Program-made: the position numbers and the translations under genes | The notes under the pieces: generated by a model | Databases searched by the model: none | What the model saw: the letters and a program-made list of their open reading frames with translations, nothing else | Told to the model about the DNA's origin: nothing | Shown here: one piece after another, positions 29,332-46,096 of the stretch | Position numbering within the stretch: the stretch's first letter is position 1 | Layout of the letters: every line of letters begins with the position of its first letter | From: Adhaeribacter swui | GTDB lineage: Bacteria > Bacteroidota > Bacteroidia > Cytophagales > Hymenobacteraceae | Assembly: GCF_014217805.1 (NCBI RefSeq) | Contig: NZ_CP055156.1 | Coordinates: forward strand, 1,488,001-1,552,000 | Direction: 5' to 3' | Length of the DNA stretch: 64,000 bases

Positions 29332-30609
29332 TCAAATAATAAAGTGGTAAAACTCTGGCCGGTTGTTAATGTATTGGCAATTAAAATTACGTTCGGCCAT
29401 CCGTTGTACTAATCCGTCAAAATCGGCGCGGTTTTTTAATTCTATACCTACCAAGGCCGGACCTTTTTCGCGGCTATTCTTTTTGGTATACTCAAAATGC
29501 GTGATATCGTCAGTGGGCCCTAAAATATCATTTACAAATTCTTTTAAAGCGCCGGCCCGTTGCGGGAAATTAACGATAAAATAGTGCTTCAAGCCCTCGT
29601 AAAGTAGCGAACGCTCTTTTATTTCTTCGGTGCGGGTAATATCGTTGTTGCCGCCGCTAACTACGCACACTACGGTTTTACCAACAATTTGGTCTTGTAC
29701 AAAATCTAAAGCCGCAATACTAAGGGCGCCGGCGGGTTCTACCACCATAGCTTCTTCGTTGTAAAGCTGCAGAATAGTAGAGCACACTTTACCTTCGGGC
29801 ACAGTAATTACTTCATCCAGGTTTTCCCGGCAGATCTGTAAGGTTAATTCGCCCACAGATTTTACCGCGGCCCCATCCACAAACTTATCAATGTGGTCCA
29901 GTGTTATTTTTTCGCCGGCTTCAATGGAGTTTTTCATGGCCGGGGCACCTTCCGGCTCCACACCAATAATGGCAGTTTGCGGGCTTTCTTCCCGGAAATA
30001 ACTAGAAACTCCAGCCGCTAAACCACCTCCCCCAACGGGTAATAACAGTAAATCTACTGGCTCCGGAATAGAATCTAATATCTCTAAGCCAACCGTACCC
30101 TGGCCCGCAATTACCTGCGGATCATCAAAGGGGTGAATAAAAACTTTATTATTTTGATTCGAGAAGGTTAAAGCCTGGAAGTACGAATCGTCGAAGGTAT
30201 CGCCGGTAAGTACTATTTCTACGTGCTCTTTGCCGAATAATTGTACTTGCTTTAGTTTTTGCTGCGGGGTAGTTACAGGCATAAAAATGTGGCCTTTAAT
30301 CCCGAGCTTATGGCAAGAGTAAGCCACGCCTTGAGCGTGATTTCCCGCACTGGCGCAAACGATCCCGTTTTTTAATTGTTCAGGAGCTAAACTGCTAATT
30401 TTATTGTAAGCTCCACGCAATTTATACGACCGCACTACCTGTAAATCTTCCCGTTTCAGGTAAATATTGGCCTGGTACTTTTCTGAGAGGTTAACACTGC
30501 GCAGTAAGGGGGTATGGTTTACTACCTGTTGCAAACGGGTAGCGGCAAGTTTTACATCTTCGGCTCGCACCAGCGTGGCCTTTTCCACCGCAACTTCTTC
30601 TTCCGACAT
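29332..30609 (-). CDS. ilvA: Threonine ammonia-lyase (threonine deaminase), biosynthetic
   Basis: A 425-residue PLP enzyme turning threonine into 2-oxobutanoate, the first committed step to isoleucine. The catalytic fold-type II domain (about 1-330) carries the PLP Lys in VVRSYKLRGAYNKI (about 57), the phosphate-binding glycine loop LPVGGGGLAAG (about 190), and the SAGNHAQGVA motif. The C-terminal ACT-like regulatory segment (about 335-425, KHYFIVNFPQRAGALKEFV) is a single unit, the short form found in many Gram-positives and Bacteroidota, as opposed to the two-unit E. coli form. It is last in the ilv operon. The upstream thr genes on the other strand supply its substrate. Confidence 0.95.
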   Translation of the reverse strand: MSEEEVAVEKATLVRAEDVKLAATRLQQVVNHTPLLRSVNLSEKYQANIYLKREDLQVVRSYKLRGAYNKISSLAPEQLKNGIVCASAGNHAQGVAYSCHKLGIKGHIFMPVTTPQQKLKQVQLFGKEHVEIVLTGDTFDDSYFQALTFSNQNNKVFIHPFDDPQVIAGQGTVGLEILDSIPEPVDLLLLPVGGGGLAAGVSSYFREESPQTAIIGVEPEGAPAMKNSIEAGEKITLDHIDKFVDGAAVKSVGELTLQICRENLDEVITVPEGKVCSTILQLYNEEAMVVEPAGALSIAALDFVQDQIVGKTVVCVVSGGNNDITRTEEIKERSLLYEGLKHYFIVNFPQRAGALKEFVNDILGPTDDITHFEYTKKNSREKGPALVGIELKNRADFDGLVQRMAERNFNCQYINNRPEFYHFII

Positions 30610-30627
30610 GATATTATTTCGTTATTC

Positions 30628-30753
30628 GTTGTTAGTTGCTCGTTGTTCGCTAAAAATCCGGATGCGAAACTGATTGAACTAAAACTCAAAGTATAATCTG
30701 AATTAAAGTTTTTCTTTGCTCGCTCGAATAACGAACAACGAGTAACTAACAAC
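30628..30753. repeat. Inverted-repeat spacer element between ilvC and ilvA
   Basis: Arms of 22 bp, 30628-30649 (GTTGTTAGTTGCTCGTTGTTCG) read here in part as GTTGTTAGTTGCTCG, and 30732-30753, are complementary with one mismatch. About 80 bp lie between them. The flanking sequence extends the similarity with further words such as GTTATTCG/CGAATAAC. The element fills nearly the whole gap between ilvC and ilvA and would form a large hairpin in the operon mRNA. Confidence 0.6.
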
Positions 30754-30758
30754 TAATA

Positions 30759-31805
30759 TTAATTATTTTGAGGGCGTAGCTTGCGCACCTGAGCGCCGGC
30801 TTGCCACATTTCTGAATTGCGCAGTTCTGCTAATTCTGCATCTAGTTTTTCGCGGTAATCGGGTTGGCTGTTGGTATCAATAGAGCGTTGTGCTTCGTTA
30901 CCGGTTGCTACGCTTTCGTATAAGTCTTCAAACACCGGAGCAACTGCATCCCGGAATTTGTTTTTCCAGTCTAAAGCACCACGTTGCGCAGTGGTAGAGC
31001 AGTTAGCGTACATCCAATCCATGCCATTTTCGGCTACTAACAAAATTAAGCTTTCAGTTAATTCTTCTACGGTCTCGTTGAACGACTCCGAAGGAGAATG
31101 GCCTTTTTTGCGTAACAGATTGTACTGTGCTTCCAAAATACCCGCTAAAGCGCCCATTAAAGTACCGCGCTCACCGGTTAAGTCAGAATATACTTCTTTT
31201 TTGAAATCAGTTTCGAATAAGTAACCAGAACCTACGCCAATACCCAAGGCAATTACTTTTTCACGAGCTTTACCAGAAGCATCCTGGAAAATAGCAAAGC
31301 TAGAGTTCAAACCTTTACCTTCCAGGAACATGCGGCGCAAGCTGGTACCAGAACCTTTAGGAGCTACCAGAATTACATCTACATCGGCCGGAGGAACAAT
31401 ACCGGTACGCTCTTTAAAGGTAACGCCGAAACCATGCGAGAAATACAAGGTTTTGCCTGGTTTTAAATGGCTTTTTACCATCGGCCAAGCTGCAATCTGG
31501 CCAGCGTCTGATAGTAAGAATTGCAAAATAGTACCGCGCTCGCAGGCTTCTTCTAATTCAAATAAAGTTTCACCGGGTACCCAGCCATCGTTTACGGCTT
31601 TCTCCCAGGTTTTTGAATCTTTCCGCTGCCCAACAATTACATTAAAGCCATTGTCGCGCAGGTTTAATGCCTGGCCGGGACCTTGCACGCCGTAACCGAG
31701 TACCGCAATTGTTTCATTTTTTAAAACTTCTCTTGCTTGCTCCAAAGGGAATTCTTCCCGGGTTACAACACTTTCTTCAGTTCCGCCAAAGTTGATTTTT
31801 GCCAT
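30759..31805 (-). CDS. ilvC: Ketol-acid reductoisomerase (NADP+)
   Basis: A 348-residue class I enzyme that isomerises and reduces acetolactate and acetohydroxybutyrate in valine and isoleucine synthesis. The N-terminal Rossmann domain has the dinucleotide motif VLGYGVQGPGQALNLRDNG (about 34-52), followed by VGQRKDS, where the Arg and Ser side chains of the beta2-alphaB loop suggest NADPH preference. The knotted C-terminal domain carries the metal-binding acidic residues in DLTGERGTLMGALAG (about 208-222) and the Glu-rich helix FNETVEELTESL. Length fits the single-knot class I form. Third biosynthetic step gene in the operon after ilvN. Confidence 0.96.
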   Translation of the reverse strand: MAKINFGGTEESVVTREEFPLEQAREVLKNETIAVLGYGVQGPGQALNLRDNGFNVIVGQRKDSKTWEKAVNDGWVPGETLFELEEACERGTILQFLLSDAGQIAAWPMVKSHLKPGKTLYFSHGFGVTFKERTGIVPPADVDVILVAPKGSGTSLRRMFLEGKGLNSSFAIFQDASGKAREKVIALGIGVGSGYLFETDFKKEVYSDLTGERGTLMGALAGILEAQYNLLRKKGHSPSESFNETVEELTESLILLVAENGMDWMYANCSTTAQRGALDWKNKFRDAVAPVFEDLYESVATGNEAQRSIDTNSQPDYREKLDAELAELRNSEMWQAGAQVRKLRPQNN

Positions 31806-31856
31806 TGTTTTTAAATAGTTTATAGATTATTATAATAGGTTTCTTTTTGGATATTG

Positions 31857-31914
31857 GATGTTCGAATTTTAACCGAATAATTTTAAAAAATAGAAAATCA
31901 AACAATCGAACATC
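31857..31914. repeat. Inverted-repeat spacer element between ilvN and ilvC
   Basis: Arms GATGTTCGA (31857-31865) and TCGAACATC (31906-31914) are perfect 9-bp complements around 40 bp of AT-rich DNA. It lies in the 113-bp gap inside the ilv operon and has the same design as the element at 30628, but different sequence. Confidence 0.45.
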
Positions 31915-31918
31915 TAAA

Positions 31919-32482
31919 TTACAAATAAGCTTCTTCCTGTTCGCGCAGGTACGTGCTTAAATCTTTCATGTGCTTGGTAATAGCCACCCGGCCGCTGCGC
32001 ACAAATTGTAGAATACCAAACGGTGATAACTTCTCGAATAATTCGCGGGTTTCTTCGATGTGCCCCGTTTTCTCGATAATGATGTATTGCGGATCTACCG
32101 TTAAAATACGGGCGTAGCTGTCGCGTACAATTTGTTCTACCTGGCTGCCATTAATCATAGAGCTCATCGGAATTTTATACATCGCAATTTCCTGAAAGAT
32201 AGTTTCTTCTTCGGGATAAAAAGAAGCCCGCAGGACATCCACTTGCTTGGCAATTTGTTTTACCAGTTTTTCTACCTGGGCATAGGTAGTTTTAACAATA
32301 ATAGTATAGCGATATACATTTTGTACTTCCGACTCGGAGACCGTAATACTTTCGATGTTAATGTGCCGCCGGGTAAATACGATGGTAATGCGGTTAAGCA
32401 GACCAACTTTGTTTTCGGTAAACGCAAATATGGTGTAAGTTTTTTCCTCGCCCGAATCTATCTGATAATCATCAATCGCCAT
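31919..32482 (-). CDS. ilvN: Acetolactate synthase small (regulatory) subunit
   Basis: A 187-residue regulatory subunit. The N-terminal ACT domain (about 14-88, YTIFAFTENKVGLLNRITIVF) is where valine binds in family members. The C-terminal ALS_ss_C domain follows (about 95-175, QEIAMYKIPM and VDPQYIIIEKTGHIEE). It joins the large subunit encoded 150 bp upstream to give the complete acetohydroxyacid synthase and its feedback control. Confidence 0.95.
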   Translation of the reverse strand: MAIDDYQIDSGEEKTYTIFAFTENKVGLLNRITIVFTRRHINIESITVSESEVQNVYRYTIIVKTTYAQVEKLVKQIAKQVDVLRASFYPEEETIFQEIAMYKIPMSSMINGSQVEQIVRDSYARILTVDPQYIIIEKTGHIEETRELFEKLSPFGILQFVRSGRVAITKHMKDLSTYLREQEEAYL

Positions 32483-32588
32483 GGCTTTTTATAAATACGA
32501 TGTGCTTTTTTTAAATTTATTATTAACTGGTGGTATAAACGCCGACCCAAATTTCCTTCTTAAAAGGAAAATTTTAAAATTTTGTTAG

Positions 32589-32618
32589 GGTTCCTTCCTC
32601 TCCTAAGAAGAAGGAACC
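32589..32618 (-). other. Intercistronic hairpin between ilvB and ilvN
   Basis: A 9-bp perfect stem GGTTCCTTC / GAAGGAACC with a 12-nt loop in the 150-bp gap after ilvB. On the minus-strand RNA it is not followed by a clean U-run, so it may be an mRNA-stability or partial-termination element rather than a full terminator. Confidence 0.5.
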
Positions 32619-32632
32619 TTATTTATAGTATT

Positions 32633-34399
32633 TTAAGATAACCGAATGTTAGCTACAGAATCCCCGGCTGGTACCATCGGGAACACGTTGTCTTCTTTCT
32701 CTACTACTACTTCTAACACGTAAGGTCCTTGGTGATCGAGCATAGTTTGGATAGCTTCTTGCAGGTTGTCCCGCTCGGTTACTTTATTGCCAGAAATACC
32801 ATAAGCTTTGGCAATGCCAACGAAATCCGGGTTTACCATCTCGGTAAATGAGTAGCGTTTCTGATGAAATAATTGCTGCCACTGCCGTACCATTCCCAGG
32901 AAGTTGTTGTTCAGGATCAACACTTTCACACCAATCTGATATTGAAAAATACAGCCTAGTTCCTGCAACGTCATCTGGAAGCCACCATCCCCAATTACGG
33001 CAATTACCTGACGATCTGGGGCACCCACCTTCGCGCCCATGGCTGCGGGTAAGCAAAAACCCATGGTGCCTAAACCTCCAGAAGTAATGTTACTGCGGCG
33101 CATATCTTTAAATCTATAGTACCGCATTGCTGTCATCTGGTGCTGCCCTACGTCAGTAACAATTACCGCTTTACCTTCTGATAACTCCGAAACCTGATGA
33201 ATAACTTCCGCCATTTTTACTTTTCCGGTTGTTGGCGCAATCTCAGGTGCCATTACTTTGGTGTACTCAATTTGGGCACACTCATTAAATTTTTGTAACC
33301 AGGCTTCGTGCTTGTTCTCGTTAATTAAAGGCAATAAGGCTTGCAAAGCAGCTTTCGCATCGGCGTTAACGGCTACATCTACCCGTACGTTCTTATTAAT
33401 TTCGGCCGGGTCTATTTCAATATGAATAATTTTAGCTTGCCGGGCATATCGTTTTAAATCGCCGGTTACCCGGTCATCGAAGCGCATCCCAATGGCAATC
33501 ATTACATCGCACTCGTTAGTTAATAAGTTAGGCCCATAATTACCGTGCATGCCCAGCATACCCACATTTAAGGGATGATCGGTGGGCAAACCCGCTAAGC
33601 CCATAATGGTCCAGGCTGCCGGTATACCTGCTTTTTCGATAAAAGCTTTTAAATCTTCCTGGGCGTGAGATAATATAACGCCTTGCCCCCATAATACATA
33701 AGGTTTCTGGGCATTATTAATTAATTCAGCGGCTTCCGCAATAGCCTTTTCGTTTAACTTGGGCACCGGGTAATAGCTAGAAATGCGTTTGCATTTTTTA
33801 TAACTATACTCAAAGGTAGCGTTTTGGGCATCCTTGGTTATATCCACCAAAACCGGACCCGGACGGCCAGAAGTAGCAATGTAAAAGGCTTTAGCAACCG
33901 CATCCGGAATATCTTCGGCGCGGGTTACCTGTATGTTCCATTTGGTTACCGGCATGGTAACGCCTAATACATCTGTTTCCTGAAAAGCGTCGGTACCCAG
34001 CAAATGCGAAAACACCTGCCCTGTAATGCATACTAAAGGAGTAGAATCAATCTGGGCATCGGCAATACCCGTAATTAAATTAGTAGCGCCTGGTCCGGAA
34101 GTAGCAAAACAAACCCCTGGTTTACCGGTGATACGGGCATAACCCTGAGCCGCATGCGCCCCGCCTTGCTCGTGGCGTACCAGATAGTGGTTTAGCTGAT
34201 CTTTGAAATCATACAAGGCATCGTAAATGGGCATAATAGCTCCTCCCGGATAGCCAAAAATAGTGTCGACGCCTTCTTCCAGTAATGCTAGCAAGAGCCC
34301 CTGAGCGCCTGTTACCATTCTTGTTTCTGTTATTGCTTGCTCTTCCTTTTCGGTGATTTCTGCTACTGCTGCGTTCATAACATTTTGTATTTGTTCCAC
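32633..34399 (-). CDS. ilvB: Acetolactate synthase large (catalytic) subunit
   Basis: A 588-residue thiamine-diphosphate enzyme condensing pyruvate with pyruvate or 2-oxobutanoate. The N-terminal TPP-binding domain contains the catalytic Glu in VRHEQGGAHAAQGYAR (about 78). A central domain (about 210-350, including MIAIGMRFDDRVTG) follows. The C-terminal domain has the TPP-Mg motif VIGDGGFQMTLQELG...LNNNFLGMVRQWQ (GDG-x about 26-NN). The first 20 residues are acidic and variable. It sits between a methyltransferase gene and ilvN in the ilv operon. Confidence 0.96.
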   Translation of the reverse strand: MEQIQNVMNAAVAEITEKEEQAITETRMVTGAQGLLLALLEEGVDTIFGYPGGAIMPIYDALYDFKDQLNHYLVRHEQGGAHAAQGYARITGKPGVCFATSGPGATNLITGIADAQIDSTPLVCITGQVFSHLLGTDAFQETDVLGVTMPVTKWNIQVTRAEDIPDAVAKAFYIATSGRPGPVLVDITKDAQNATFEYSYKKCKRISSYYPVPKLNEKAIAEAAELINNAQKPYVLWGQGVILSHAQEDLKAFIEKAGIPAAWTIMGLAGLPTDHPLNVGMLGMHGNYGPNLLTNECDVMIAIGMRFDDRVTGDLKRYARQAKIIHIEIDPAEINKNVRVDVAVNADAKAALQALLPLINENKHEAWLQKFNECAQIEYTKVMAPEIAPTTGKVKMAEVIHQVSELSEGKAVIVTDVGQHQMTAMRYYRFKDMRRSNITSGGLGTMGFCLPAAMGAKVGAPDRQVIAVIGDGGFQMTLQELGCIFQYQIGVKVLILNNNFLGMVRQWQQLFHQKRYSFTEMVNPDFVGIAKAYGISGNKVTERDNLQEAIQTMLDHQGPYVLEVVVEKEDNVFPMVPAGDSVANIRLS

Positions 34400-34510
34400 T
34401 CCTGGCCCGTTTGCGGAGTAGAGATATTTAATTATTTTTTAAATTAATTAGAAACACTCCTTAGATATTAACTAATTATATCTCAGTAGAATTCATCTAT
34501 TTAAGTATTT

Positions 34511-35089
34511 TTATTTTTTTACTGCTATTACAATGCCGGTTGCCCAGACTTGCTTTGTCAGTACTAAATCGTTTCGCTGGTCTAAAACCTGAAGAAGCTT
34601 GGTTGCTTTTTGGGCATGACCATCCGGCCAATTAGGCTGGGGCAGCATATCATCAATAATATACAACCCGCTGGTATTCAGCATTTCCAGCACTTCATCT
34701 AACAACAAGTATTTCCCGTGCCAGGTATCGGCAAAAATATAATCGAACTTTTGATTCTTATTCTGTGCTACCCAATCGCCGCCGTCGGAGCAAATAAGCT
34801 GTAGGCGTTCGTCGTGGCCCAGAAAATCTTGCGTAATTTTTAAAAAATCGGCACTGTTATCCACCGAAACCAAGGTAGAATCTTTGTCCATCCCGTCCAG
34901 AATCCAGGCAGTAGAAAGACCGGTTCCGGTTCCGAGTTCCAGAAACTTAGCCGCCGGTTTAGTAGCCGCCAAGGTGCGCAGCAAAGAACAAGTGAGTACA
35001 TCCGAAGCCATGGTAAAACCCGAAGCCTGCGTAGCTTCGTTTATTGCCGCGTAATAGGTCGGCAAAGGTTGGTTTATTTCTTCGGTCAT
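34511..35089 (-). CDS. O-methyltransferase-like SAM-dependent methyltransferase
   Basis: A 192-residue class I methyltransferase resembling the O-methyltransferase/caffeoyl-CoA family. SAM-binding motif I FLELGTGTGLSTAWIL (about 49-64), acidic motif II VSVDNSADFL (Asp about 80), and motif DYIFADTWHGKY (about 118) are visible, followed by GLYIIDDMLPQPNW. There is no signal peptide, so it is cytoplasmic. It lies between ilvD and ilvB in the same direction, with gaps of 144 and 111 bp. It has no known role in branched-chain amino acid synthesis, so the substrate is unknown and its membership may be simple co-transcription. Confidence 0.87.
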   Translation of the reverse strand: MTEEINQPLPTYYAAINEATQASGFTMASDVLTCSLLRTLAATKPAAKFLELGTGTGLSTAWILDGMDKDSTLVSVDNSADFLKITQDFLGHDERLQLICSDGGDWVAQNKNQKFDYIFADTWHGKYLLLDEVLEMLNTSGLYIIDDMLPQPNWPDGHAQKATKLLQVLDQRNDLVLTKQVWATGIVIAVKK

Positions 35090-35233
35090 TTGTACTGGCT
35101 CTTTGCTTATTTTTTAAAATTTTATTTTTCTGAACTGCTCTTATTATTTATAAGGAGTAAAACCGGCTATTTACCTGTTTTCTTTACAACTTAGGTTCCT
35201 TAATAAAAGCAACTTAGGTCTGTTTATTTAAAG

Positions 35234-36937
35234 TTATCTATCTGTTACACAGCCTTCGGAGGCTGAGGAAACCGATTTAGCGTACTTATATAAAATACCC
35301 GAATTTTTGCGCAATGGCCGGGGCTGCCAGGCAGCACGGCGTTTCGCAATTTCTTCTTCGCTCAGGTCTACTTCTAAGCGGTTGTTCACGGCATCAATGG
35401 TAATTTTATCGCCATTCTGGAGTAGACCAATCATTCCGCCTATATGCGCTTCCGGGGTAATGTGGCCTACCACAAAACCGTGCGTACCACCCGAGAAACG
35501 GCCATCGGTAATTAAAGCTACCGATTTACCTAAGCCCGCTCCCATAATTAAAGAAGTAGGTTTCAGCATTTCAGGCATACCCGGTCCTCCTTGCGGACCT
35601 TCGTACCGGATTACCAACACATCGCCTTCTTTTACCTTACCCGACAAAATACCCTCGTTGGCTTCAAACTCGCCGTCGAATACCACCGCAGTACCGGTGA
35701 ATAACTCACCTTCTTTACCGGTTATTTTAGCAACCCCACCTTGCTCGGCTAAATTACCATACAGAATGCGGATGTGGCCCGTTTCTTTTATCGGCTGATC
35801 CAGTGGCATAATTACATCTTGCCCTTCGGCCAAGTCGGGTACATTCTCTAAATTTTCGGCAACGGTTTTACCGGTAACGGTTAAACAATCACCGTGTAAC
35901 AAACCAGCTTTCAGTAACATTTTCATAACAGCCGGAATACCACCAATTTTATGAACGGCTTCCATGTGGTATTTGCCACTAGGCTTCATATCGGCTAGAA
36001 GCGGGGTTTTATCGCTAATGCGTTGGAAATCATCGATGGTTAAATCTACTCCGGCAGTTTTGGCAATCGCTAATAAGTGTAATACTGCATTGGTAGAACC
36101 ACCTAAAACGGTCAGCACCACCATGGCATTTTCAAAAGCCTTTTTGGTCATGATATCCAAAGGCTTAATATCTTTAGCCAGAAGCTCCCGGATGGCAATA
36201 CCAGCCTGTACCGATTCTTCGGCTTTTTCCGGGCTAATAGCCGGGTTAGAAGAATTATAAGGTAAGGTCATTCCCATGGCTTCGGCGGCAGACGCCATAG
36301 TATTGGCAGTATACATCCCACCGCAGGCACCAGCCCCGGGGCAAGCATGTTCTATTACCCCTTTAAAATCTTCCGGTGAAATAGTACCGGCGTATTTTTC
36401 ACCCAACGCTTCAAACGCCGAAACAATATCTAATTTTTTACCAGTAAATTTTCCGGCCGCATCGCAGTAGTTACCGGGCTCAATAGTCCCCCCGTATACC
36501 ATAATTGCAGGCCGGTTTAAACGGGCAAAGCTGATAAGAGCTCCTGGCATATTCTTGTCGCAACCTACCACCGCTACTACGCCATCGTAGCTTTGGGCAT
36601 TTACCACTGTTTCAATTGAATCTGCAATTAGATCGCGCGAGGGCAAGGAATAACGCATACCCGGCGTTCCCATCGAAATACCATCACTTACTCCAATGGT
36701 ATGGAACACTAAACCAAGTACATCCTCTGTGGTATTCACCCCATTTTTAACCAGTTTAGCTAAATCATTCAGGTGCATGTTGCAGGGGTTGCCATCGAAC
36801 CCGGTACTCACCACTCCTACCTGTGCTTTTTTCAGGTCGTCGTTGCTTAAGCCAATAGCGTGCAACATAGCCTGGGCGGCCGGATTGGTTTCTTCCTGGG
36901 TAACGAGGTAACTGTAACGGTTTAATGTAGTACTCAT
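35234..36937 (-). CDS. ilvD: Dihydroxy-acid dehydratase
   Basis: A 567-residue iron-sulfur dehydratase making the 2-oxo acids of valine and isoleucine. The three cluster-ligand cysteines are recognisable in [10 protein letters not shown] (about 53), [13 protein letters not shown] (about 124) and [16 protein letters not shown] (about 194-201), and the [14 protein letters not shown] segment (about 278) is diagnostic for IlvD/Edd. Length is standard. It is the first structural gene of the operon; the leader peptide and attenuator described at 37056-37187 lie 119-250 bp upstream, so the whole set is likely controlled by supply of charged branched-chain tRNAs. Confidence 0.96.
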
Positions 36938-37055
36938 TTTTGTTCCTTTATTTTAAAGCTTTTAAGGTTATTTAATTGCCTTATTTTTAAATCTTAGACT
37001 CTGCTATAACTAAAACTTATTAGCTTGTCATGCCTTTAATTAAAACTATTATGGT

Positions 37056-37090
37056 AAAAAAAAGCGCCACTCTGTTGAAGGAATGGCGCC
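37056..37090 (-). terminator. ilv attenuator terminator
   Basis: On the minus strand, a 9-bp stem GCGCCATTC / GAGTGGCGC (one U-G pair) with loop CTTCAACA is followed directly by eight U. It lies 23 nt after the stop codon of the ilv leader peptide and 119 bp before ilvD, with no gene end upstream that would need a terminator there. It is therefore an attenuator rather than an ordinary gene-end signal. Confidence 0.85.
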
Positions 37091-37150
37091 GATTATATTT
37101 TATCAAAATAGATTACACCATCCATCGTTTAGCGTCGATAATGACGCTAA
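37080..37150 (-). promoter_or_regulatory. ilv leader pause hairpin and antiterminator segments
   Basis: In the minus-strand leader RNA, a perfect 8-bp hairpin TTAGCGTC / GACGCTAA (37150-37129) lies inside the Ile/Val-rich part of the leader peptide gene. Further on, GGATGGTG (37123-37116, the last codons of the peptide) can pair with CGCCATTCC (37088-37080), the left arm of the terminator, in eight pairs with one bulge. A ribosome stalled on the Ile codons would leave GGATGGTG free (antiterminator). One at the stop codon would cover it (terminator forms). This is my reading of base pairing, not a folding calculation. Confidence 0.7.
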
Positions 37151-37187
37151 GAATAATTCGGTTCAGGACAGATGAAGTAAACAGCAT
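37113..37187 (-). CDS. ilvL: ilv operon leader peptide
   Basis: A 24-codon frame from ATG 37187 to TAA 37113, upstream of ilvD. Ten of 24 residues are Ile, Leu or Val, including the run IILSVII (residues 11-17), and it ends WMV. This is the composition expected of a leader peptide that senses isoleucine, leucine and valine, comparable to the E. coli ilv leader. The hairpin 37150-37129 is within it, and the U-tailed terminator starts 23 nt after its stop. The frame is too short for ordinary gene callers. The name is used by analogy with position and composition, since no sequence homology to the E. coli peptide is claimed. Confidence 0.78.
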   Translation of the reverse strand: MLFTSSVLNRIILSVIIDAKRWMV

Positions 37188-37190
37188 GAA

Positions 37191-37931
37191 ATCTTGTTTT
37201 GCTTATTTTGTTTGTTAAAGCGTCGCTAATGTAAAAACAATTTTTAAAAACCAAAAATTAAGATTTTAATTTTTATTCTATTTTTTTGATTTCAGTCCGA
37301 TATTCATCAACTCTAAATTTAGTTTTATTTAAAATTTTACAACAGAAAAATCATTTAAAGGAGTACGTTATGAAATTTTAAAATTTTATGCTCTCATTTT
37401 TATAAAATGATGAAAATTACAAAAATCATCTTTTAAACCAAACAACTACTCCCTGATAATCAAGCAAAAACATTAAGTTTTCACTATTTATTTTTCTTCA
37501 ATGCCCCTACATTTCTCCATCCATAAGAAAGTCAGCTTTATCTAATTTATTTAAAGTCCTGCCTCATAAAAGAATTTCTTAGTTTGGCCTAATCAATTTA
37601 TTATCTCTATTGTAGCACGCTGCTTTACTTCAGCAAATTTTTAAAAATTTGTATTTCCCGGATTTTAGCTGCCCCATTTATTCCAATTATTTATTAACGG
37701 AAACAATTAAACTACTGCAGTAAATTAGTCCGGCATATTCCCTTTTTTGCTTTTAGCCAGGGGCATTTTATAACAAATCACTTTTTGTTGTTAGACACAA
37801 CGTAATAAATTAAGTAACTGACTGAAAGTTTTGTTTACTTTGTTTTGAGATTTTGAAAATTATCGAGTTTCTTTCGCCTCGCAAAAAAATTCAGGTTTTT
37901 AAATCTGGTAAAATCAACATTATTCTATTGT
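37191..37931. other. Divergent intergenic region between ilv and thr operons
   Basis: About 740 bp of AT-rich DNA that must hold the promoters for both the leftward ilv operon and the rightward thr operon. At 37219-37228 the sequence AGCGTCGCTAA partly repeats the leader hairpin arm GACGCTAA and could compete with it. I find no gene, tRNA or repeat in the rest. The -7 consensus TAnnTTTG is matched only loosely in several places. Confidence 0.4.
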
Positions 37932-37969
37932 ACTTTAACGATGTAGAGAGCATCGCTAAAGTTTTTTTT
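37932..37969 (+). terminator. Terminator hairpin immediately upstream of thrA
   Basis: Plus strand stem ACTTTA-a-CGATG / CATCG-c-TAAAGT (6 plus 5 pairs with one mismatch), loop TAGAGAG, followed by eight U. It ends 20 bp before the thrA ATG, so it cannot end an upstream gene (the upstream gene is divergent). A role as an attenuator of thrABC is likely. No ATG-started leader peptide rich in Thr/Ile was found. Confidence 0.75.
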
Positions 37970-37988
37970 AGTTTTTATAAACGTTCGC

Positions 37989-40433
37989 ATGATAGTTTTA
38001 AAATTTGGCGGTTCTTCGGTGAGTACCCCGGAGAATATCTTAAAAGTGCTGGGAGTGGTAAAATCACACTCCTCGGTGCATGAGTTAGCAGTAGTAGTTT
38101 CGGCGTTTGGTGGAGTTACGGACAGCTTAATTAATATTAGCCGGTTAGCCGAAAAAGGCGACCTGACTTATAAGCAAGAGCTTAAAAAGATTGAAGAGCG
38201 CCACCTGGCCACGGTTAAAGAACTCATTCATGCTACGCGCCAAAGTGCTATTATTGCCAACGTAAAATTCTTACTCAACGAACTCGAAGATATATTACAG
38301 GGCGTTTTTCTGGTGAAAGAACTTAGCCTGAAAACCCTGGATTTCATTCAAAGCTTTGGGGAGCGTTTATCGTCGTACCTGGTAGCCGAAGCTTTTAAAG
38401 AAAACGGTTTGCCTGCTTTTGCCGCCGATTACCGCCAGCTTATTGTAAGCGACCGGACCTACGGCAATGCGAAAGTAAATTTTGAGTTAACTAATACCCG
38501 TATTAAACAATACTTAAGCGGAACCGAGGAGTTACCGGTAGTTCCGGGCTTTGTGGCCACCACCGAACACGGCGAAACTACCACTTTGGGCCGGGGTGGC
38601 TCCGATTATACGGCGGCTATTGTGGCTGCTGCTTTAGATTCGGCTAGTTTGGAAATCTGGACGGATGTAAGTGGTATGATGACCGCCGACCCGCGCCGGG
38701 TAAAAAATGCTATTCCAATTGAAGAATTATCGTACGAAGAGGCCCTGGAGCTTTCTTATTTCGGAGCCAAGATTATTTATCCGCCTACCATTCAGCCAGC
38801 ACTGAGTAAGAAAATTCCGATTAGGTTAAAAAACACTTTCGAGCCAGATGCACCTGGCACCCAAATAACCCATAATCCGCGCCAAAGCGAAGCGCCGGTG
38901 AAAGGTATTGCGTCCATCGAAAACATAGCTTTACTTACTATTTCGGGCAGCGGCATGGTAGGTGCCAGCGGTATTGCCATGCGCTTTTTTGGCGCTTTAG
39001 CTACTCAAAAAGTAAACGTTATTTTAATTACCCAAGCCTCTTCGGAGCACTCCATTAGCGTAGGTATTAATCAACGCGATTCTATCCGGGCACAACGCGC
39101 TATTGAGCAAGAGTTTCAACTGGAAATTCAGGCAGGCATTGTAGATAAAGTAAATATTCAAAACGATTTGGCCATTGTGGCCTTGGTTGGTTCGAATATG
39201 CGTAATACACCGGGTATTGCCGGGAAACTGTTCAGTTCGTTAGGCCGCAACGGTATAAACATAATAGCCATAGCCCAGGGTACTTCGGAGCTCAATATTT
39301 CCTGCGTTATCCAGAAGAAAGACGAAGAAAAAGCTTTAAATACCATTCACGAAGCGTTCTTCCTTTCGGATGTAAAAACCCTGCATTTATTTGTGGTAGG
39401 TACCGGTACGGTAGGCGCTACTTTATTAAAGCAGATTAAAAACCAGGCGCCTAATCTGTACAAAACTTTAGCGATTGATATAAAGCTGATTGGCATAACT
39501 AACAGCAAAAAAGCGGTATTTAACGAAACTGGTATTCCGTGGCAAAGTTGGGAAGAAGCTTTGGAGAATGATGGACAGGAATCGAACATTGAGGTATTTG
39601 TAGACCGGATAGCCGAGTTAAATTTAGCGAATGCCATTTTCGTAGATTGTACCGCTAACTCCGAAGTAGCTGCTACTTATAAGTTTTTGCTGGAAAGAAG
39701 CATTTCCATTGTAACACCTAACAAAATTGCGGCTTCCAGCAACTACCACACGTACAAAGAATTAAAAAGCCTGGCTGCCAAGCGGGGCGTAAAATACTTA
39801 TACGAAACCAACGTAGGTGCCGGCTTACCTATAATTAGTACCTTAACTGATTTAATCCGGAGCGGCGATACCGTATTGAAGATTGAAGGTATTTTCTCGG
39901 GCACTATGAATTACTTGTTTAACACCGTAAGCGCCGATAAAAAACTAAGTACCGTAGTGCAGGAAGCCATGGATTTAGGTTACGCCGAACCAGATCCCCG
40001 CATTGACTTGAGCGGCAAAGACGTAGCCCGAAAAATTATGATTCTGGCCCGCGAAACCGGTGACAATCTGGAACTAGAAGATGTGCATATTAAGCCGTTT
40101 TTACCGGCCAACTGCTTACAGGATTCCCCGATGGATGAGTTCTGGCAAAACCTGCGGACTTACGAAGATACGTTTGAAGCCCAGCGCGCCGAAGTAGAAA
40201 AACAAGGCAAAGGCTACCGTTTAGTAGCATCCTGGGAAGATGGCAAAGCACGCATTGAATTACGCGAAGTAGAGAAAAGCCATCCGTTTTATTCGGTTTC
40301 CGGTTCCGATAATATTATTTTGTTCACTACGGAGCGTTACAAGGTGCAACCGCTTATTGTGAAAGGGTCCGGTGCCGGAGCAGAAGTAACCGCGGCTGGC
40401 GTATTCGCCGATATTATCCGGATTGCGAATTAA
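37989..40433 (+). CDS. thrA: Bifunctional aspartate kinase / homoserine dehydrogenase
   Basis: An 814-residue fusion enzyme catalysing the first and third steps from aspartate to threonine. The aspartate kinase domain (about 1-290) begins VLKFGGSSVSTPEN and has the LGRGGSDYTAAIVAAAL motif. Two ACT-type regulatory units follow (about 305-460, LLTISGSGMVGASGIAMRFFGAL and VALVGSNMRNTPGIAGKLFSSLG), the site of threonine feedback in relatives. The homoserine dehydrogenase domain (about 465-814) has the NAD(P) motif VVGTGTVGATLL, VDCTANSEVA, and the catalytic region FSGTMNYLFN and DPRIDLSGKDVARK. It heads the thrABC set, preceded by a terminator-like hairpin. Confidence 0.96.
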   Translation: MIVLKFGGSSVSTPENILKVLGVVKSHSSVHELAVVVSAFGGVTDSLINISRLAEKGDLTYKQELKKIEERHLATVKELIHATRQSAIIANVKFLLNELEDILQGVFLVKELSLKTLDFIQSFGERLSSYLVAEAFKENGLPAFAADYRQLIVSDRTYGNAKVNFELTNTRIKQYLSGTEELPVVPGFVATTEHGETTTLGRGGSDYTAAIVAAALDSASLEIWTDVSGMMTADPRRVKNAIPIEELSYEEALELSYFGAKIIYPPTIQPALSKKIPIRLKNTFEPDAPGTQITHNPRQSEAPVKGIASIENIALLTISGSGMVGASGIAMRFFGALATQKVNVILITQASSEHSISVGINQRDSIRAQRAIEQEFQLEIQAGIVDKVNIQNDLAIVALVGSNMRNTPGIAGKLFSSLGRNGINIIAIAQGTSELNISCVIQKKDEEKALNTIHEAFFLSDVKTLHLFVVGTGTVGATLLKQIKNQAPNLYKTLAIDIKLIGITNSKKAVFNETGIPWQSWEEALENDGQESNIEVFVDRIAELNLANAIFVDCTANSEVAATYKFLLERSISIVTPNKIAASSNYHTYKELKSLAAKRGVKYLYETNVGAGLPIISTLTDLIRSGDTVLKIEGIFSGTMNYLFNTVSADKKLSTVVQEAMDLGYAEPDPRIDLSGKDVARKIMILARETGDNLELEDVHIKPFLPANCLQDSPMDEFWQNLRTYEDTFEAQRAEVEKQGKGYRLVASWEDGKARIELREVEKSHPFYSVSGSDNIILFTTERYKVQPLIVKGSGAGAEVTAAGVFADIIRIAN

Positions 40434-40437
40434 AAAA

Positions 40438-40513
40438 TAGTCCATGGTCCATAGTCGCTGGACATCATCAAGGATTTAAAGAAAAGATATTACCATGGAC
40501 TATCGTCTATGGG
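40438..40513. repeat. Inverted-repeat spacer element between thrA and thrB
   Basis: Arms TAGTCCATGG (40438-40447) and CCATGGACTA (40493-40502) are perfect 10-bp complements. Next to each arm lies a second, diverged copy: CCATAGTCG at 40449-40457 and CGTCTATGG at 40504-40512 (complementary with one mismatch). The element fills most of the 95-bp gap. Confidence 0.55.
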
Positions 40514-40528
40514 CTATCGACTAAAAAA

Positions 40529-41461
40529 ATGAAAGATAGTAACAGTATAAAAATATTCTCGCCGGCTACCGTTGCAAACGTGGCCTGCGGGTTCGATATA
40601 TTAGGGTTTGCGCTAGACAATCCGGGCGATGAAATCCAAGTAAGTTTAAAAGACAGCCCGGGTATTTCGGTCCTGAATCAAACCCAAGACACCGTTTTTC
40701 CAGCGGATGTAAACAAAAATACCGCTGTGGTTTCGTTGCAGGCATATTTATCGCACCTGGGTTCCGACCAAGGGTTTGAAATAACTTTTACTAAAAAAAT
40801 TAAACCCGGCAGCGGTATTGGGTCCAGTTCGGCAAGTGCGGCTGCCAGTGTTTTTGCCGCTAACGAATTATTAGGTAATCCCATCAGCAAAGAGAATCTG
40901 GTACAATTTGCCATGCAGGGCGAAAAAGCCGCTTGTGGCGTAGCCCATGCCGACAATGTAGCGCCTGCCCTCTTAGGTGGTTTTGTTTTGGTTCGGTCTT
41001 ACGATCCACTGGATATTATCTCTATTCCCTACCCCGAAGAATTATACTGTACCATTATTCACCCGCAGATTGAGGTAAAAACCGAAGATGCCCGCAAAAT
41101 TTTACGCCAAGGCATTTCGCTGAAAGACGCCGTGAAACAATGGGGCAACGTAGGCGGTTTAATTGCTGGTTTAATGAAAGGCGATTATGGACTTATTGGC
41201 CGGTCGCTGGAAGATGCCATTATCGAACCTATCCGCTCTATTCTGATTCCGGGGTACGATGCCGTAAAAGAAGCCGCCTTAGAAGCCGGTGCCCTGGGTT
41301 GCTGTATTTCTGGCTCCGGCCCCAGCATGTTTGCCTTAAGCCGCTCGCAGGAAGAAGCTACCCAAATTGCCGCCGCCATGAAAAAAGCTTTTACCCACTA
41401 CGAAATTGATAATATTGATTACGTATCCCGGGTAAATAATCAAGGGCCAAAAGTGATTTAA
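40529..41461 (+). CDS. thrB: Homoserine kinase
   Basis: A 310-residue GHMP kinase that phosphorylates homoserine. The start has ATVANVACGFDILGFALD (family N-terminal motif), the ATP-binding glycine loop PGSGIGSSSASAAASVFAAN (about 91-110), and the C-terminal motif GCCISGSGPSMFALS. It lies between thrA and thrC with the same orientation. Length is standard. Confidence 0.96.
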   Translation: MKDSNSIKIFSPATVANVACGFDILGFALDNPGDEIQVSLKDSPGISVLNQTQDTVFPADVNKNTAVVSLQAYLSHLGSDQGFEITFTKKIKPGSGIGSSSASAAASVFAANELLGNPISKENLVQFAMQGEKAACGVAHADNVAPALLGGFVLVRSYDPLDIISIPYPEELYCTIIHPQIEVKTEDARKILRQGISLKDAVKQWGNVGGLIAGLMKGDYGLIGRSLEDAIIEPIRSILIPGYDAVKEAALEAGALGCCISGSGPSMFALSRSQEEATQIAAAMKKAFTHYEIDNIDYVSRVNNQGPKVI

Positions 41462-41637
41462 ACATTACTACACAACTAAGCTAAACTCCCATCAGGATAA
41501 TCAGGAGCTTGTTATTTCGTGTTTGTAATTTTTAAATTTTTAAAAAATTCAGGTTAAGTGGCATGTAAGTGATAACCTTTAAAGCATCCATTATTCTGGT
41601 AGCCTTTTAATAATTAGTAATTTAACAATTTACATAA

Positions 41638-42939
41638 ATGTCGTTTTACAGTACCAATCAGCAAACCCCGCACGTAAGTTTGCGCGAGGCCGTAACCAAA
41701 GGCTTAGCCGATGATAACGGCTTGTTTATGCCTTTAGAAATTCCGGAGTTACCGCACAGTTATTTCGAGATTATTCAGGAAAAATCTTTACCCGAAATTG
41801 CCCTTGATGTAGCTTCTACCCTGTTACGGGGTCAGATTGAAAGAGGCGTTTTGCAGGAGATTGTGGAGGAAAGCTTAAACTTTCCTATTCCGGTAGTGCC
41901 GGTACATGGCCGTATCCATACCCTGGAATTATTTCACGGGCCAACCTCGGCATTTAAAGATGTAGGTGCCCGCTTCATGGCCCGTTTGCTGGCGCATTTT
42001 GTAAAAGGTAACGATAAAGAATTAACCATTCTGGTAGCCACTTCCGGCGATACTGGTAGCGCGGTAGCTAATGGATTTTTAGGCGTGCCCGGCATTAACG
42101 TTGTTATTTTATACCCACATGGCAAAGTAAGCGACATCCAGGAAAAGCAATTAACTACGCTGGGCGAGAACATCACGGCTTTAGAAATTGATGGTACTTT
42201 CGACGATTGCCAATGGCTGGTAAAACAAGCTTTCCTGGATCAGGAACTGAACCAGCGCATGCAATTAACTTCGGCTAACTCCATAAACATTGCCCGGCTT
42301 ATTCCGCAATCGTTCTATTATTTTCATGCGTATGCCCAGGTAAAACATTTAAGTGAGCGGGTAGTATTTGCTACGCCCAGCGGCAATTTTGGCAACTTAA
42401 CCGGTGGTTTATTGGCCAAACGTATGGGTTTACCGGTAGCTAAGTTTATTGCTGCTACTAATATTAACGACATTGTACCGGAGTTTTTAACGAGCGGCAT
42501 TTTTAACCCCCGGGCATCTACACAAACCATTTCCAACGCCATGGATGTGGGTAACCCCAGCAATTTTGTGCGGCTCATGGATTTATATAAACAATCGGGC
42601 GATGCTTTACGCGAAGATGTAATTGGCTACCGGTTTACCGATGAGCAAACTAAAATGTTGATGCGCGAAGTTTACGAAAACCACGGCTATATTCTGGACC
42701 CGCACGGCGCGATTGGCTACGGGGCTATCCGCGATTATTTGGCTACCGATCCGGAAGCCATTGGTATATTTCTGGAAACGGCTCATCCGGCCAAATTTAT
42801 GGATGTGGTAGAAGACGTTATCGGCCAAAAAGTAAATATTCCGGAAAACCTGCAAATGGTAATGCAAAAAACCAAGCAATCCATTCGCATGAGCCATAAC
42901 TACGATGATTTAAAGGCCTGGCTATTAGCCCGCGCTTAG
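41638..42939 (+). CDS. thrC: Threonine synthase
   Basis: A 433-residue PLP enzyme converting phosphohomoserine to threonine. The N-terminal domain has YSTNQQTPHVSLREAV and GLFMP. The PLP Lys lies in HGPTSAFKDVGARFMA (about 103), and the phosphate-binding loop region is VATSGDTGSAVANGF. SANSINIARLIPQ is also typical of the family. It is the last gene of thrABC, with a strong terminator at 42995. Its product feeds the ilvA enzyme encoded in the divergent operon. Confidence 0.96.
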   Translation: MSFYSTNQQTPHVSLREAVTKGLADDNGLFMPLEIPELPHSYFEIIQEKSLPEIALDVASTLLRGQIERGVLQEIVEESLNFPIPVVPVHGRIHTLELFHGPTSAFKDVGARFMARLLAHFVKGNDKELTILVATSGDTGSAVANGFLGVPGINVVILYPHGKVSDIQEKQLTTLGENITALEIDGTFDDCQWLVKQAFLDQELNQRMQLTSANSINIARLIPQSFYYFHAYAQVKHLSERVVFATPSGNFGNLTGGLLAKRMGLPVAKFIAATNINDIVPEFLTSGIFNPRASTQTISNAMDVGNPSNFVRLMDLYKQSGDALREDVIGYRFTDEQTKMLMREVYENHGYILDPHGAIGYGAIRDYLATDPEAIGIFLETAHPAKFMDVVEDVIGQKVNIPENLQMVMQKTKQSIRMSHNYDDLKAWLLARA

Positions 42940-42994
42940 TTTTTTTTAAACTTATTGCTAAGTCTTTATTTGATTTGGCGTTACAAATAACCTG

Positions 42995-43025
42995 GCCAGT
43001 GTCTTAACCTGACACTGGCTTTTTT
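42995..43025 (+). terminator. Intrinsic terminator after thrC
   Basis: A 9-bp perfect stem GCCAGTGTC / GACACTGGC with a 7-nt loop TTAACCT, followed by six U. It lies 56 bp after the thrC stop. Confidence 0.9.
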
Positions 43026-43102
43026 CTAAACCAACTTGCCAAAACTTAGCTGCACAGATCTTAAAACCTTTGCACCTTATTATAAAATTGCTTGTTATAG
43101 CA

Positions 43103-43247
43103 CCTAAGTATTAAAACGTTTGCCCATTTTGATTATAGTTGTTGTGTTATAGGACTTGTTTACCTTTTGAAAATATCGCAATAAACAAGACCTTAGATTT
43201 AAAATTTTCAACGGTAAACGGGCTCAAAATTATTTTTAATACTTAGG
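43103..43247. repeat. 145-bp inverted-repeat element upstream of leuA
   Basis: Perfect outer arms CCTAAGTATTAAAA (43103-43116) and TTTTAATACTTAGG (43234-43247). Internal complementary words include GTTTACC (43159-43165) with GGTAAAC (43213-43219), and CTTGTTTA (43155-43162) with TAAACAAG (43182-43189). It has no coding frame. The terminal palindromes and small size look like a MITE or a fold-back element; target-site duplication is not clear. Confidence 0.55.
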
Positions 43248-43424
43248 CTTGGATATTTTTAAATAATTTCTGCATCTTTATTGAACGGCTTTATTTTTTA
43301 AATTTCTGCGATTTTAGAAGAATAAAGTAGCGTAATTAAATTTGGCGGAAAACTTAAAGTAGATTTTATTTTGTTTTCTGTGAAGTAAATTCCTGACGTA
43401 GCCGGGTTTTCCGGATCGAAGGGT

Positions 43425-43449
43425 AGAAACTGGCAACGTGCCGGTTTCT
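43425..43449 (+). promoter_or_regulatory. Hairpin in leuA leader
   Basis: A 10-bp stem AGAAACTGGC / GCCGGTTTCT (one G-U pair) with loop AACGT, 31 bp upstream of the leuA ATG. It is not followed by a U-run, so it is not a plain terminator. It could affect translation start or mRNA stability. Confidence 0.45.
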
Positions 43450-43480
43450 GTTATTTGAATATATTTAATCATTTTCTACC

Positions 43481-44665
43481 ATGAGCGACAAGGTCCATAT
43501 TTTTGACACGACGTTACGCGACGGCGAGCAGGTGCCCGGCTGCCAATTAAACACCAAAGAAAAAATTGAAGTAGCCAAAGCCCTGGAAGAACTAGGCGTA
43601 GATATCATCGAAGCGGGTTTTCCAATCTCCAGTCCCGGCGATTTTACTTCTATCATTGAAATATCAAAGGCAGTTTCGGAGCCGGTAATCTGCGCGCTAA
43701 CCCGGGCTAAAAAAGAAGATATTGATTGCGCCGTAGAATCGTTGAAGCACGCCAAACGCAAACGCATCCATACGGGTATTGGCGCTTCGGATATGCACAT
43801 TCAGTACAAATTTAATTCTACCCGCGAAGATGTACTGGCACGAGGCGTTTATGCCGTAAAATATGCGAAGCAATTTGTAGAAGATATTGAGTTTTACGCC
43901 GAAGATGCCGGCCGGGCCGATTTGCCTTTCCTGGCTAAAATGATTGAAGAAGTAATTGCGGCTGGTGCCACCGTCGTAAACATCCCCGATACTACCGGCT
44001 ACTGCTTGCCTTGGGAGTACGGCGCCAAAATTAAATATTTAAAAGAAAACGTTAAGAATATAGATAAGGCCATTATCTCGGTGCATTGCCACAACGATTT
44101 AGGCTTGGCTACCGCTAACTCCATTGCCGGCGTTATTAACGGTGCCCGCCAAATTGAGTGTACCATTAACGGTATTGGCGAACGCGCTGGTAATACCTCC
44201 TTAGAGGAAGTGGTGATGATTATGAAAAGCCACAAAGAATTAGAATTATTAAACCGGATTAACACGCCACGGATTTATCCTACCAGCCGTTTGGTATCGC
44301 GGTTAATGCGCATGCGCGTGCAGCCCAACAAAGCCATTGTGGGCGATAATGCTTTTGCGCACTCTTCTGGTATTCACCAGGACGGCTTCCTGAAACACCG
44401 CGAAACGTACGAAGTAATTGATCCGCACGATGTAGGGGTGGCTGATTCTTCGATTGTGTTAACGGCCCGTAGCGGCCGGGCGGCTTTGAAACACCGCCTG
44501 GAAAGCTTAGGCTACTTTGTTACCAAAGAAGATATCGACGAAATTTACCCGGAATATCTGGTAATGGCCGATGAGCTAAAAGTTATTCAAGACGAGCATT
44601 TAACGGTGCTTTTTCAAAAATTAGAAACTAAACGGGAGCAAGCCGCTGTTAAAACCAACAGCTAA
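43481..44665 (+). CDS. leuA: 2-isopropylmalate synthase (short form)
   Basis: A 394-residue enzyme condensing 2-oxoisovalerate with acetyl-CoA, the first leucine step. The HMGL-like barrel shows [15 protein letters not shown] (about 8-22), the His-x-His metal motif in [16 protein letters not shown], and the [15 protein letters not shown] motif, all family-defining. The C-terminal helical subdomain follows ([20 protein letters not shown]). It ends near residue 394 and lacks the roughly 120-residue allosteric LeuA dimer domain of the 510-residue E. coli form, so leucine feedback of the usual kind is not expected. Related homocitrate or citramalate synthases share this shape, but the adjacent leuCD genes favour leuA. 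Confidence 0.92.
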
Positions 44666-44673
44666 TTTTACAA

Positions 44674-46086
44674 ATGAGTAGTTCCGATAAAAAAACATTA
44701 TTTCAAAAAATCTGGGATGCCCACGTGGTAACCAGCATTCCGGACGGCCCGGATGTGTTATATATAGATCGGCACCTGGTGCACGAAGTAACTAGCCCAC
44801 AAGCTTTTGCCGGTCTCGAAAAAAGAGGTATTGGGGTATTCCGGACACAGAATACCGTGGCTACTGCTGACCATAACGTACCTACTATTAATCAGCATTT
44901 ACCTATTTCGGAGCCGCTGAGCCGGTTCCAAGTAGATAAACTCACCGAAAATTGCCGAAAATTTGGCGTGAATCTGTACGGTTTAGGCCATCCTTTCCAG
45001 GGCATTGTGCACGTAATCGGGCCCGAGTTAGGCATTACCTTACCCGGCATGACCATGGTATGCGGCGACAGCCATACTTCTACGCACGGTGCATTTGGTA
45101 CTATTGCTTTTGGTATTGGTACCAGCGAGGTAGAACAAGTACTGGCAACGCAATGCCTCATGCAGAACAAGCCTAAAACCATGCGCATTAACATCGAAGG
45201 AGAACTGGCGAACGGCGTATTGTCGAAAGACATTATTCTGTACATCATCTCTAAACTCACGATGGGTGGCGCTACTGGTTATTTTGTAGAATATGCTGGT
45301 TCGGCTATTCGCAGCTTAAGTATGGAAGCCCGCATGACTATCTGCAATATGAGTATTGAGATGGGTGCCCGCGGTGGCTTAATTGCTCCCGATGATATTA
45401 CGTTTGAATACATCCAAGGCCGTCGGTTTGCGCCACAAGGCGAAAAATTTGAGGAAGCAGTTGCCTACTGGCGTACACTCTTCACCGACGAAGGCGCTGC
45501 TTTTGATGTAGAATATACTTTTGATGCCGCTGATATTGCTCCCATGATTACTTATGGCACCAATCCAGGCATGGGCATTAAAATCGATGAAACGGTACCA
45601 AGCTTAGCCGATATCAAAGAAGAAAGCAACAAAGCTTCTTTCGATAAATCATTGGCCTATATGGGTCTGCATCCGGGTGAACAATTATTAGGGAAAGAAA
45701 TCAATTACGTGTTTATTGGTTCCTGCACTAACTCCCGCATCGAGGACTTACGCTTGGTAGCTCAATTTGTAAAAGGCAAACACAAAGCACCAAACATTAA
45801 CGCTTTAATTGTACCGGGTTCTAAACAAGTAGAACAACAAGCCCGTGAAGAAGGCATCGACCAGATTTTCCGCGAAGCCGGATTTGAATTACGGGAACCC
45901 GGTTGCTCCGCTTGCCTGGGCATGAACGAAGATAAAGTACCGAAAGGCGAATACTGCATCTCTACGTCTAACCGGAATTTTGAAGGCCGCCAGGGACCTG
46001 GTGCCCGTACTTTGTTGGCTAGTCCGTTAACTGCGGCAGCTACCGCTATTGCGGGTAAAATAACGGATGTTCGGGAGTTAATCTAA
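44674..46086 (+). CDS. leuC: 3-isopropylmalate dehydratase large subunit
   Basis: A 470-residue aconitase-family subunit that isomerises isopropylmalate with LeuD. The [4Fe-4S] ligands are in [13 protein letters not shown] (Cys about 350) and [14 protein letters not shown] (Cys about 410 and 413). The start region [22 protein letters not shown] and the block [15 protein letters not shown] are typical of LeuC. It follows leuA by 8 bp and precedes leuD by 10 bp, one operon. Confidence 0.96.
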
Positions 46087-46096
46087 GTGTACCAAA

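Follow-up and report, generated by a model that had tools for sequence, protein, structure and literature searches.

How is transcription of the ilv genes of Adhaeribacter swui matched to the supply of the amino acids that they make, and does the short leader in front of ilvD do the matching? The locus lies in a window of 64,000 nucleotides (the whole stretch of DNA that was analysed), where ilvD, a methyltransferase-like gene (MT), ilvB, ilvN, ilvC and ilvA follow one another (Table 1). Because these genes share order and strand, we regard ilvD-(MT)-ilvB-ilvN-ilvC-ilvA as a presumptive single operon that is probably co-transcribed; the genes downstream of the leader make Ile and Val. The methyltransferase-like gene had no NCBIfam match at an E value of 1e-10. 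On the other side of the leader, thrA is divergent, so that no identified gene reads into the terminator from behind.

Table 1 Features of the ilv leader and of the presumed ilv operon in the window.
Feature	Coordinates	Strand	Evidence
Promoter-like block, TTTG-N18-TACATTAG (putative)	37226..37255	-	consensus match
Leader peptide ORF MLFTSSVLNRIILSVIIDAKRWMV, 24 codons plus stop	37187-37113	-	10 of 24 residues Ile, Leu or Val
Region 1, codons 2-8, protector (potential partner of region 2)	37166..37183	-	1:2 energy relative to shuffles
Hairpin AGCGTC-ATTATC-GACGCT over codons 14-19, amid the control codons	37148-37131	-	fold and consensus
Region 2, GGATGGTG, 5' half of antiterminator, final leader codons	37123-37116	-	pairs with region 3
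Region 3, CGCCATTCC, 3' half of antiterminator, overlaps 5' arm of terminator	37088-37080	-	
Intrinsic terminator, stem 37090-37081 / 37072-37063 plus U8 (T8 37063-37056)	37056..37090	-	present in 8/8 genus genomes
ilvD, first gene of presumed operon (start 36937)	35234..36937	-	TIGR00110, 741 bits, above cut-off
Methyltransferase-like gene between ilvD and ilvB	34511..35089	-	Pfam Methyltransf_24, above cut-off
ilvB, acetolactate synthase large subunit	32633..34399	-	TIGR00118, above cut-off
ilvN, acetolactate synthase small subunit	31919..32482	-	TIGR00119, above cut-off
ilvC, ketol-acid reductoisomerase	30759..31805	-	TIGR00465, above cut-off
ilvA, threonine ammonia-lyase	29332..30609	-	TIGR02079, above cut-off

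An earlier note on this DNA had described, ahead of ilvD, a 24-codon leader with ten Ile, Leu or Val residues, a hairpin, an antiterminator and a terminator ending in U8. All of these elements were found at the places and in the order claimed: on the minus strand between 37187 and 37056, the leader ORF is followed by the hairpin, the antiterminator pairing and the U8 terminator, with ilvD lying beyond. The antiterminator (2:3) and the terminator (3:4) are mutually exclusive, region 3 being common to both. The 171-nt region folds with an energy of -43.5 kcal/mol, compared with -28.6 ± 3.6 kcal/mol for shuffled sequences (z = -4.1), and none of 200 shuffles folded as well; the 2:3 pairing on its own has a p value of 0.007 relative to shuffles. 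The hairpin that lies amid the control codons may play a pause-type role. Upstream of the leader, the putative promoter block resembles TTTG / TANNTTTG, which we take to be the Bacteroidota-type promoter consensus. The position of the stem also bears on the idea that control is exerted through initiation of ilvD translation or through RNA decay instead of termination. A strong stem followed immediately by U8 and lying 118 nt upstream of ilvD resembles a terminator, not a structure at a start codon, and that idea can hardly be credited.

Known RNA families offered no other description of the element. No Rfam family, including the amino-acid leader families (Leu, His, Thr and Trp leaders) and Bacteroid-trp, matched the 64-kb window at its gathering score, and at E ≤ 10 just unrelated weak matches appeared; a riboswitch or other known RNA family was therefore discarded as a candidate. 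Likewise, the leader peptide matched none of the Pfam or NCBIfam leader-peptide profiles at E ≤ 10.

All eight genomes that were searched in the genus were examined, and the attenuator is kept in every one. The leader ORF is 75 nt long, with 24 codons, in 8/8 genomes, has no indels and ends in TAA or TGA. Residues Ile11, Ile12, Val15, Ile16 and Ile17 are invariant, Leu13 is replaced by Phe in 6/8 leaders, and the Leu8 codon varies among CTA, CTG, TTA and TTG; codons 3, 8, 17, 18, 20 and 21 show only synonymous changes. The constant length, the choice of stop codons and the codons with synonymous changes only point to coding selection on the leader. From the leader stop to the terminator the distance is exactly 23 nt in 8/8 genomes. 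Invariant alignment columns number 47/75 in the ORF, 6/23 in the spacer and 23/31 in the terminator; the corresponding figures are 40/110 for the 100 nt upstream of the leader and 102/150 for the start of ilvD. A short ORF rich in Ile, Leu and Val with a terminator was called in 8/8 genus loci, compared with 2 of 800 dinucleotide shuffles. The alignment of relatives' ilvD upstream regions that the earlier note had proposed thus bears out its expectation that peptide composition and stems are retained.

Support for the individual pairings differs. Relative to shuffles, the p value of 2:3 ranges from 0.007 to 0.06 across the eight genomes and exceeds 0.05 in two. For the protector pairing 1:2 it ranges from 0.014 to 0.17 and falls below 0.05 in four of the eight; the sequence of region 1 differs between species, and the evidence for this pairing is moderate. 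The helices are nearly invariant in the genus alignment, with compensatory changes in 0 of 23 predicted pairs. Covariation was rejected as proof of the helices because the alignment is too uniform, and the pairs of the 37148-37131 hairpin are near-invariant as well. In the 100 nt upstream of the leader, a promoter-like match, TTTG-N18/19-TACATTAG or TTACTTAG, lies at a distance of 62-70 nt from the leader ATG in seven of the eight genomes, with one or two mismatches; in the eighth the best match is placed elsewhere. Within 20 nt upstream of the ATG, none of GGAG, GAGG and AGGA is present in 7/8 genomes, and GGAG occurs in one.

Two other explanations of the conserved element were weighed against these data. 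First, the leader ORF and terminator might be a small gene or small RNA in their own right, and the ilvD promoter might lie downstream of 37056. There is room for such a promoter in the gap of 66-144 nt between terminator and ilvD (measured from the fourth U, eight genomes), and promoter-like matches do occur there, with one mismatch in one genome, two in three and three in four. However, this stretch is unconserved (4/149 columns invariant), and both the exclusive 2:3 / 3:4 pairing and the Ile and Val codons suit the function of the downstream genes; we consider this explanation unlikely. Second, control of the terminator might lie with an RNA-binding protein or with an RNA that binds a metabolite, the ORF being incidental. 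The strong sequence conservation of hairpin and terminator would suit such control, but the frame, length and Ile/Val codons of the ORF are kept in 8/8 genomes and no Rfam family reaches its gathering score, which makes it very unlikely.

Ribosome-mediated attenuation makes a prediction about folding, namely that the position of the ribosome on the leader decides which structure forms. We folded the growing transcript, with its 5' end set at 37230, with the ribosome represented by a mask reaching 17 nt upstream and 12 nt downstream of the A-site codon. With the ribosome at Ile11, Ile12, Val15, Ile16 or Ile17, the probability of the 2:3 pairing is 0.89-0.99 just past region 3 and 0.99 just before region 4; stalls at codons 7, 8 and 13 have the same outcome as the Ile/Val stalls. 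For the Ile codons alone, the antiterminator probability before the 3' arm of the terminator exists spans 0.92-0.99. With the ribosome at the stop codon, the probability of 2:3 is 0.00 before region 4 is made. In the full-length RNA at equilibrium, however, the terminator is favored in all ribosome states tested, with probabilities of 0.53-0.78 for 3:4 and at most 0.32 for 2:3. The claim that a ribosome stalled at Ile16/17 would leave region 2 free and one at the stop would cover it is thus borne out by the predicted folds of the growing transcript (0.99 compared with 0.00) and does not carry over to the full-length equilibrium, so the switch would have to be kinetic, decided as the RNA emerges. 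In the model without a ribosome, 2:3 is dominant before region 4, with a probability of 0.98, and termination enforced by the 1:2 pairing is therefore not predicted.

Together, the anatomy, the conservation in the genus and the masked folding support the reading that a classical ribosome-mediated transcription attenuator controls ilvD-(MT)-ilvB-ilvN-ilvC-ilvA, to which we assign a probability of about 0.9; the earlier note's proposal of ribosome-dependent attenuation agrees with all three. Transcription would start near 37220, and ribosomes would translate the 24-codon leader in the wake of RNA polymerase. A shortage of Ile- or Val-tRNA would halt the ribosome at Ile11/12, Val15 or Ile16/17 and leave region 2 (37123-37116) free to pair with region 3 (37088-37080). 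Once 2:3 has formed, no terminator is expected to arise before polymerase has passed, and the operon would be read. With ample Ile and Val, the ribosome would reach the stop codon and cover region 2, regions 3 and 4 would form the U8 terminator, and transcription is predicted to end near 37056. The ilv genes would thus very probably be switched on only when Ile or Val runs short; termination and the response in vivo are presumed on the basis of this model.

The same design recurs before ilvD in other Bacteroidota. We searched upstream regions for an ATG ORF of 8-40 codons with at least five Ile, Leu or Val residues in one window of eight and a terminator 0-60 nt past the stop. The detector made calls in 48 of 169 ilvD upstream regions, i.e., in the 8/8 of the genus and in 40 of 161 others: 28/79 best ilvD matches on genome contigs (Saprospiraceae, Aquimarina and other Flavobacteriaceae; the best 80 matches less L022, which has 34 nt upstream), 4/22 further loci of the same family (from the best 30 loci, 8 of them of the genus, among 126 genomes with a match) and 8/60 loci of the order (chosen mostly one per genus among 124 genomes with a match). 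In a follow-up across the phylum, which comprised 29 loci and 40 of the remaining 52 places, 14 of 69 further ilvD loci were positive. Calls on the controls were rare, with 1/169 reverse strands and 3/1690 shuffles for the first set and 0/69 and 0/690 for the second, or one reverse strand among 238 regions and 3/2380 shuffles when pooled. Eight other three-residue sets gave 0-4 calls in 169. Earlier settings of the detector had yielded 34/102 calls (the 102 including L022, too short to score) compared with 2/1010 shuffles, and stricter settings 7/60 order loci compared with 1/1200 shuffles. A screen for the ORF only was not used for counts, as it called 39/101 loci but also 216/2020 shuffles.

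The 2:3 pairing reached p < 0.05 relative to shuffles in 26 of the 40 positives outside the genus and in 11 of the 14 later ones. Region 2 begins a median of 11 nt past the last Ile/Val cluster codon in the 48 positives, a spacing that fits a ribosome footprint, with nearness to the stop partly built in because the search for region 2 was confined to the stretch between 30 nt upstream of the stop and the terminator. The recurrence upstream of ilvD in other families argues further against an independent small gene, and the variation of the peptide in these families, with Ile/Val richness maintained, argues against a terminator governed by a metabolite or protein over an incidental ORF. The attenuator was not called in 121/161 and 55/69 of the other loci, 18 of the 22 same-family loci among them. 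The device is thus patchy across the Bacteroidota in this sample, which was chosen non-randomly, so that the fractions are not estimates of prevalence; the combined Fisher value from the first survey takes no account of common descent. Some positives are near relatives (the leader is identical in L215 and L219, for example), three are doubtful (L075, L147 and L253), and one place, G217:C1, is present in both surveys and negative in each. Ten of the 14 later positives come from 11 loci of one family, several of them of one genus. These ten (L202, L205, L206, L208, L214, L215, L216, L218, L219 and L221) have a recognizable common ilv leader, e.g., MLSIILSLVIIQIIGIPYRTGKVL, and a terminator of the GCCTTCCC type, and would be well suited to building a covariance model.

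Which amino acids are read can be judged from the leaders themselves. Among the 814 residues of the 40 leaders outside the genus there are 217 Ile, 107 Val and 63 Leu, and the detector restricted to Ile and Val still called 43/169 regions, compared with 0/169 when restricted to Leu. These raw counts plainly indicate Ile and Val rather than Leu. The view that the A. swui peptide senses Ile, Leu and Val alike accordingly needs narrowing: it holds for Ile and Val, and codon content suggests that Leu has a minor part, the amino acids sensed being mainly the first two.

Other amino acid genes in and beyond the window were inspected for comparable leaders. The stretch 29332-46723 is a divergent amino-acid cluster, with ilvD-(MT)-ilvBNCA on the minus strand and thrABC and a leuA-like gene on the plus strand. 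The leuA-like gene is HMGL-like and scores below the leuA_bact cut-off; it is followed, also on the plus strand, by leuC and leuD, which were named by eye from their translations. Just upstream of thrA (37989), a terminator-like hairpin with T8 lies at 37932-37971 (plus strand) in A. swui. In the corresponding region of the other seven genus genomes, a different hairpin was called in one and none in six. A threonine leader at thrA was rejected, as the hairpin comes without a leader ORF rich in Thr or Ile. Leucine leaders were likewise dismissed: of nine leuA-like loci, L183 has its upstream region cut off by a contig end, and the eight with a visible upstream region contained no clear Leu leader with a terminator. 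A terminator-like hairpin was seen at L186, and a short ORF rich in Ile and Leu at L188, where one genome has its second leuA-like gene. Elsewhere in the window, a highly repetitive ORF rich in Thr and Gly occupies 51677-52456 on the minus strand, with long ORFs in other frames of the same stretch.

Upstream of hisG, an ATG ORF with a run of His codons (e.g., HFHHYHH or FHHHHSSH) is present in 8/8 genus genomes (L172-L179, with L176 from A. swui), its peptide reading, for example, ...AVHFHHYHHSSRGE or ...FHHHHSSHEE. Such ORFs occurred in 0/8 reverse strands and 2/800 shuffles. No terminator was called near this leader in the eight genus loci, and the three loci tested had no Rfam match there.

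Beyond the genus, we lean slightly towards the wider view that ribosome-mediated attenuation is a general and repeatedly reshaped means of controlling Ile and Val synthesis in Bacteroidota, one that reads Ile and Val over Leu from leaders mostly without a Shine-Dalgarno sequence. If that view is true, tight coupling of transcription and translation in Bacteroidota would be implied. If the attenuator at this locus works, it would already be indirect evidence for such coupling and for ribosomes starting effectively on short leaders that lack a Shine-Dalgarno sequence; it would also provide a ready control element responsive to Ile and Val.

The Bacteroid-trp RNA contains Trp codons and acts as an attenuator of trp genes, and the abstract of the 2004 attenuation survey by Vitreschak et al. 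reportedly mentions some attenuators in Bacteroidetes/Chlorobi. The earlier note had known of no description for ilv genes in this phylum. That statement holds for ilv: no ilv attenuator in Bacteroidota is named in the titles, abstract openings and passages covered, and the portions consulted of PMC4833913, PMC2494555, PMC1262725, PMC6429828, PMC13009471 and PMC3733652 contain no ilv case for the phylum. Attenuation as such has precedents there. For Flavobacterium psychrophilum, one study reports "strong clues" that operons for amino-acid synthesis are attenuated through leader peptides, and names conserved 5' elements at pheA, hisG and others (PMC9723704, passages); phylum and class of operon are the same as here, and ilv is mentioned nowhere in the main text. 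Bacteroid-trp (RF01692) is entered in a table as a cis-regulatory RNA of Bacteroidetes (PMC2864571, that entry), as the present element would be, but it belongs to a different gene and has no match in the 64-kb window. Long 5' UTRs with short ORFs reminiscent of attenuation leaders are mentioned for B. thetaiotaomicron (PMC7366714, in part), and amino-acid attenuator motifs have been suggested to derive from gammaproteobacteria (PMC3766115, in part).

The locus adds a well-defined and conserved candidate ilv attenuator to a phylum with few documented cases of leader-peptide attenuation, and the survey points to many others. The ilvGMEDA and ilvBN operons of gammaproteobacteria have leader-peptide attenuators. 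Unlike these, the A. swui element has no Pfam, NCBIfam or Rfam match, Leu has a small part in the Bacteroidota leaders, and 7/8 genus leaders lack GGAG, GAGG and AGGA. Like them, it combines a leader ORF rich in Ile and Val, mutually exclusive antiterminator and terminator structures, and a terminator placed before the first ilv gene. The comparison places the locus among the classical ribosome-mediated attenuators, as a new example rather than a novel mechanism.
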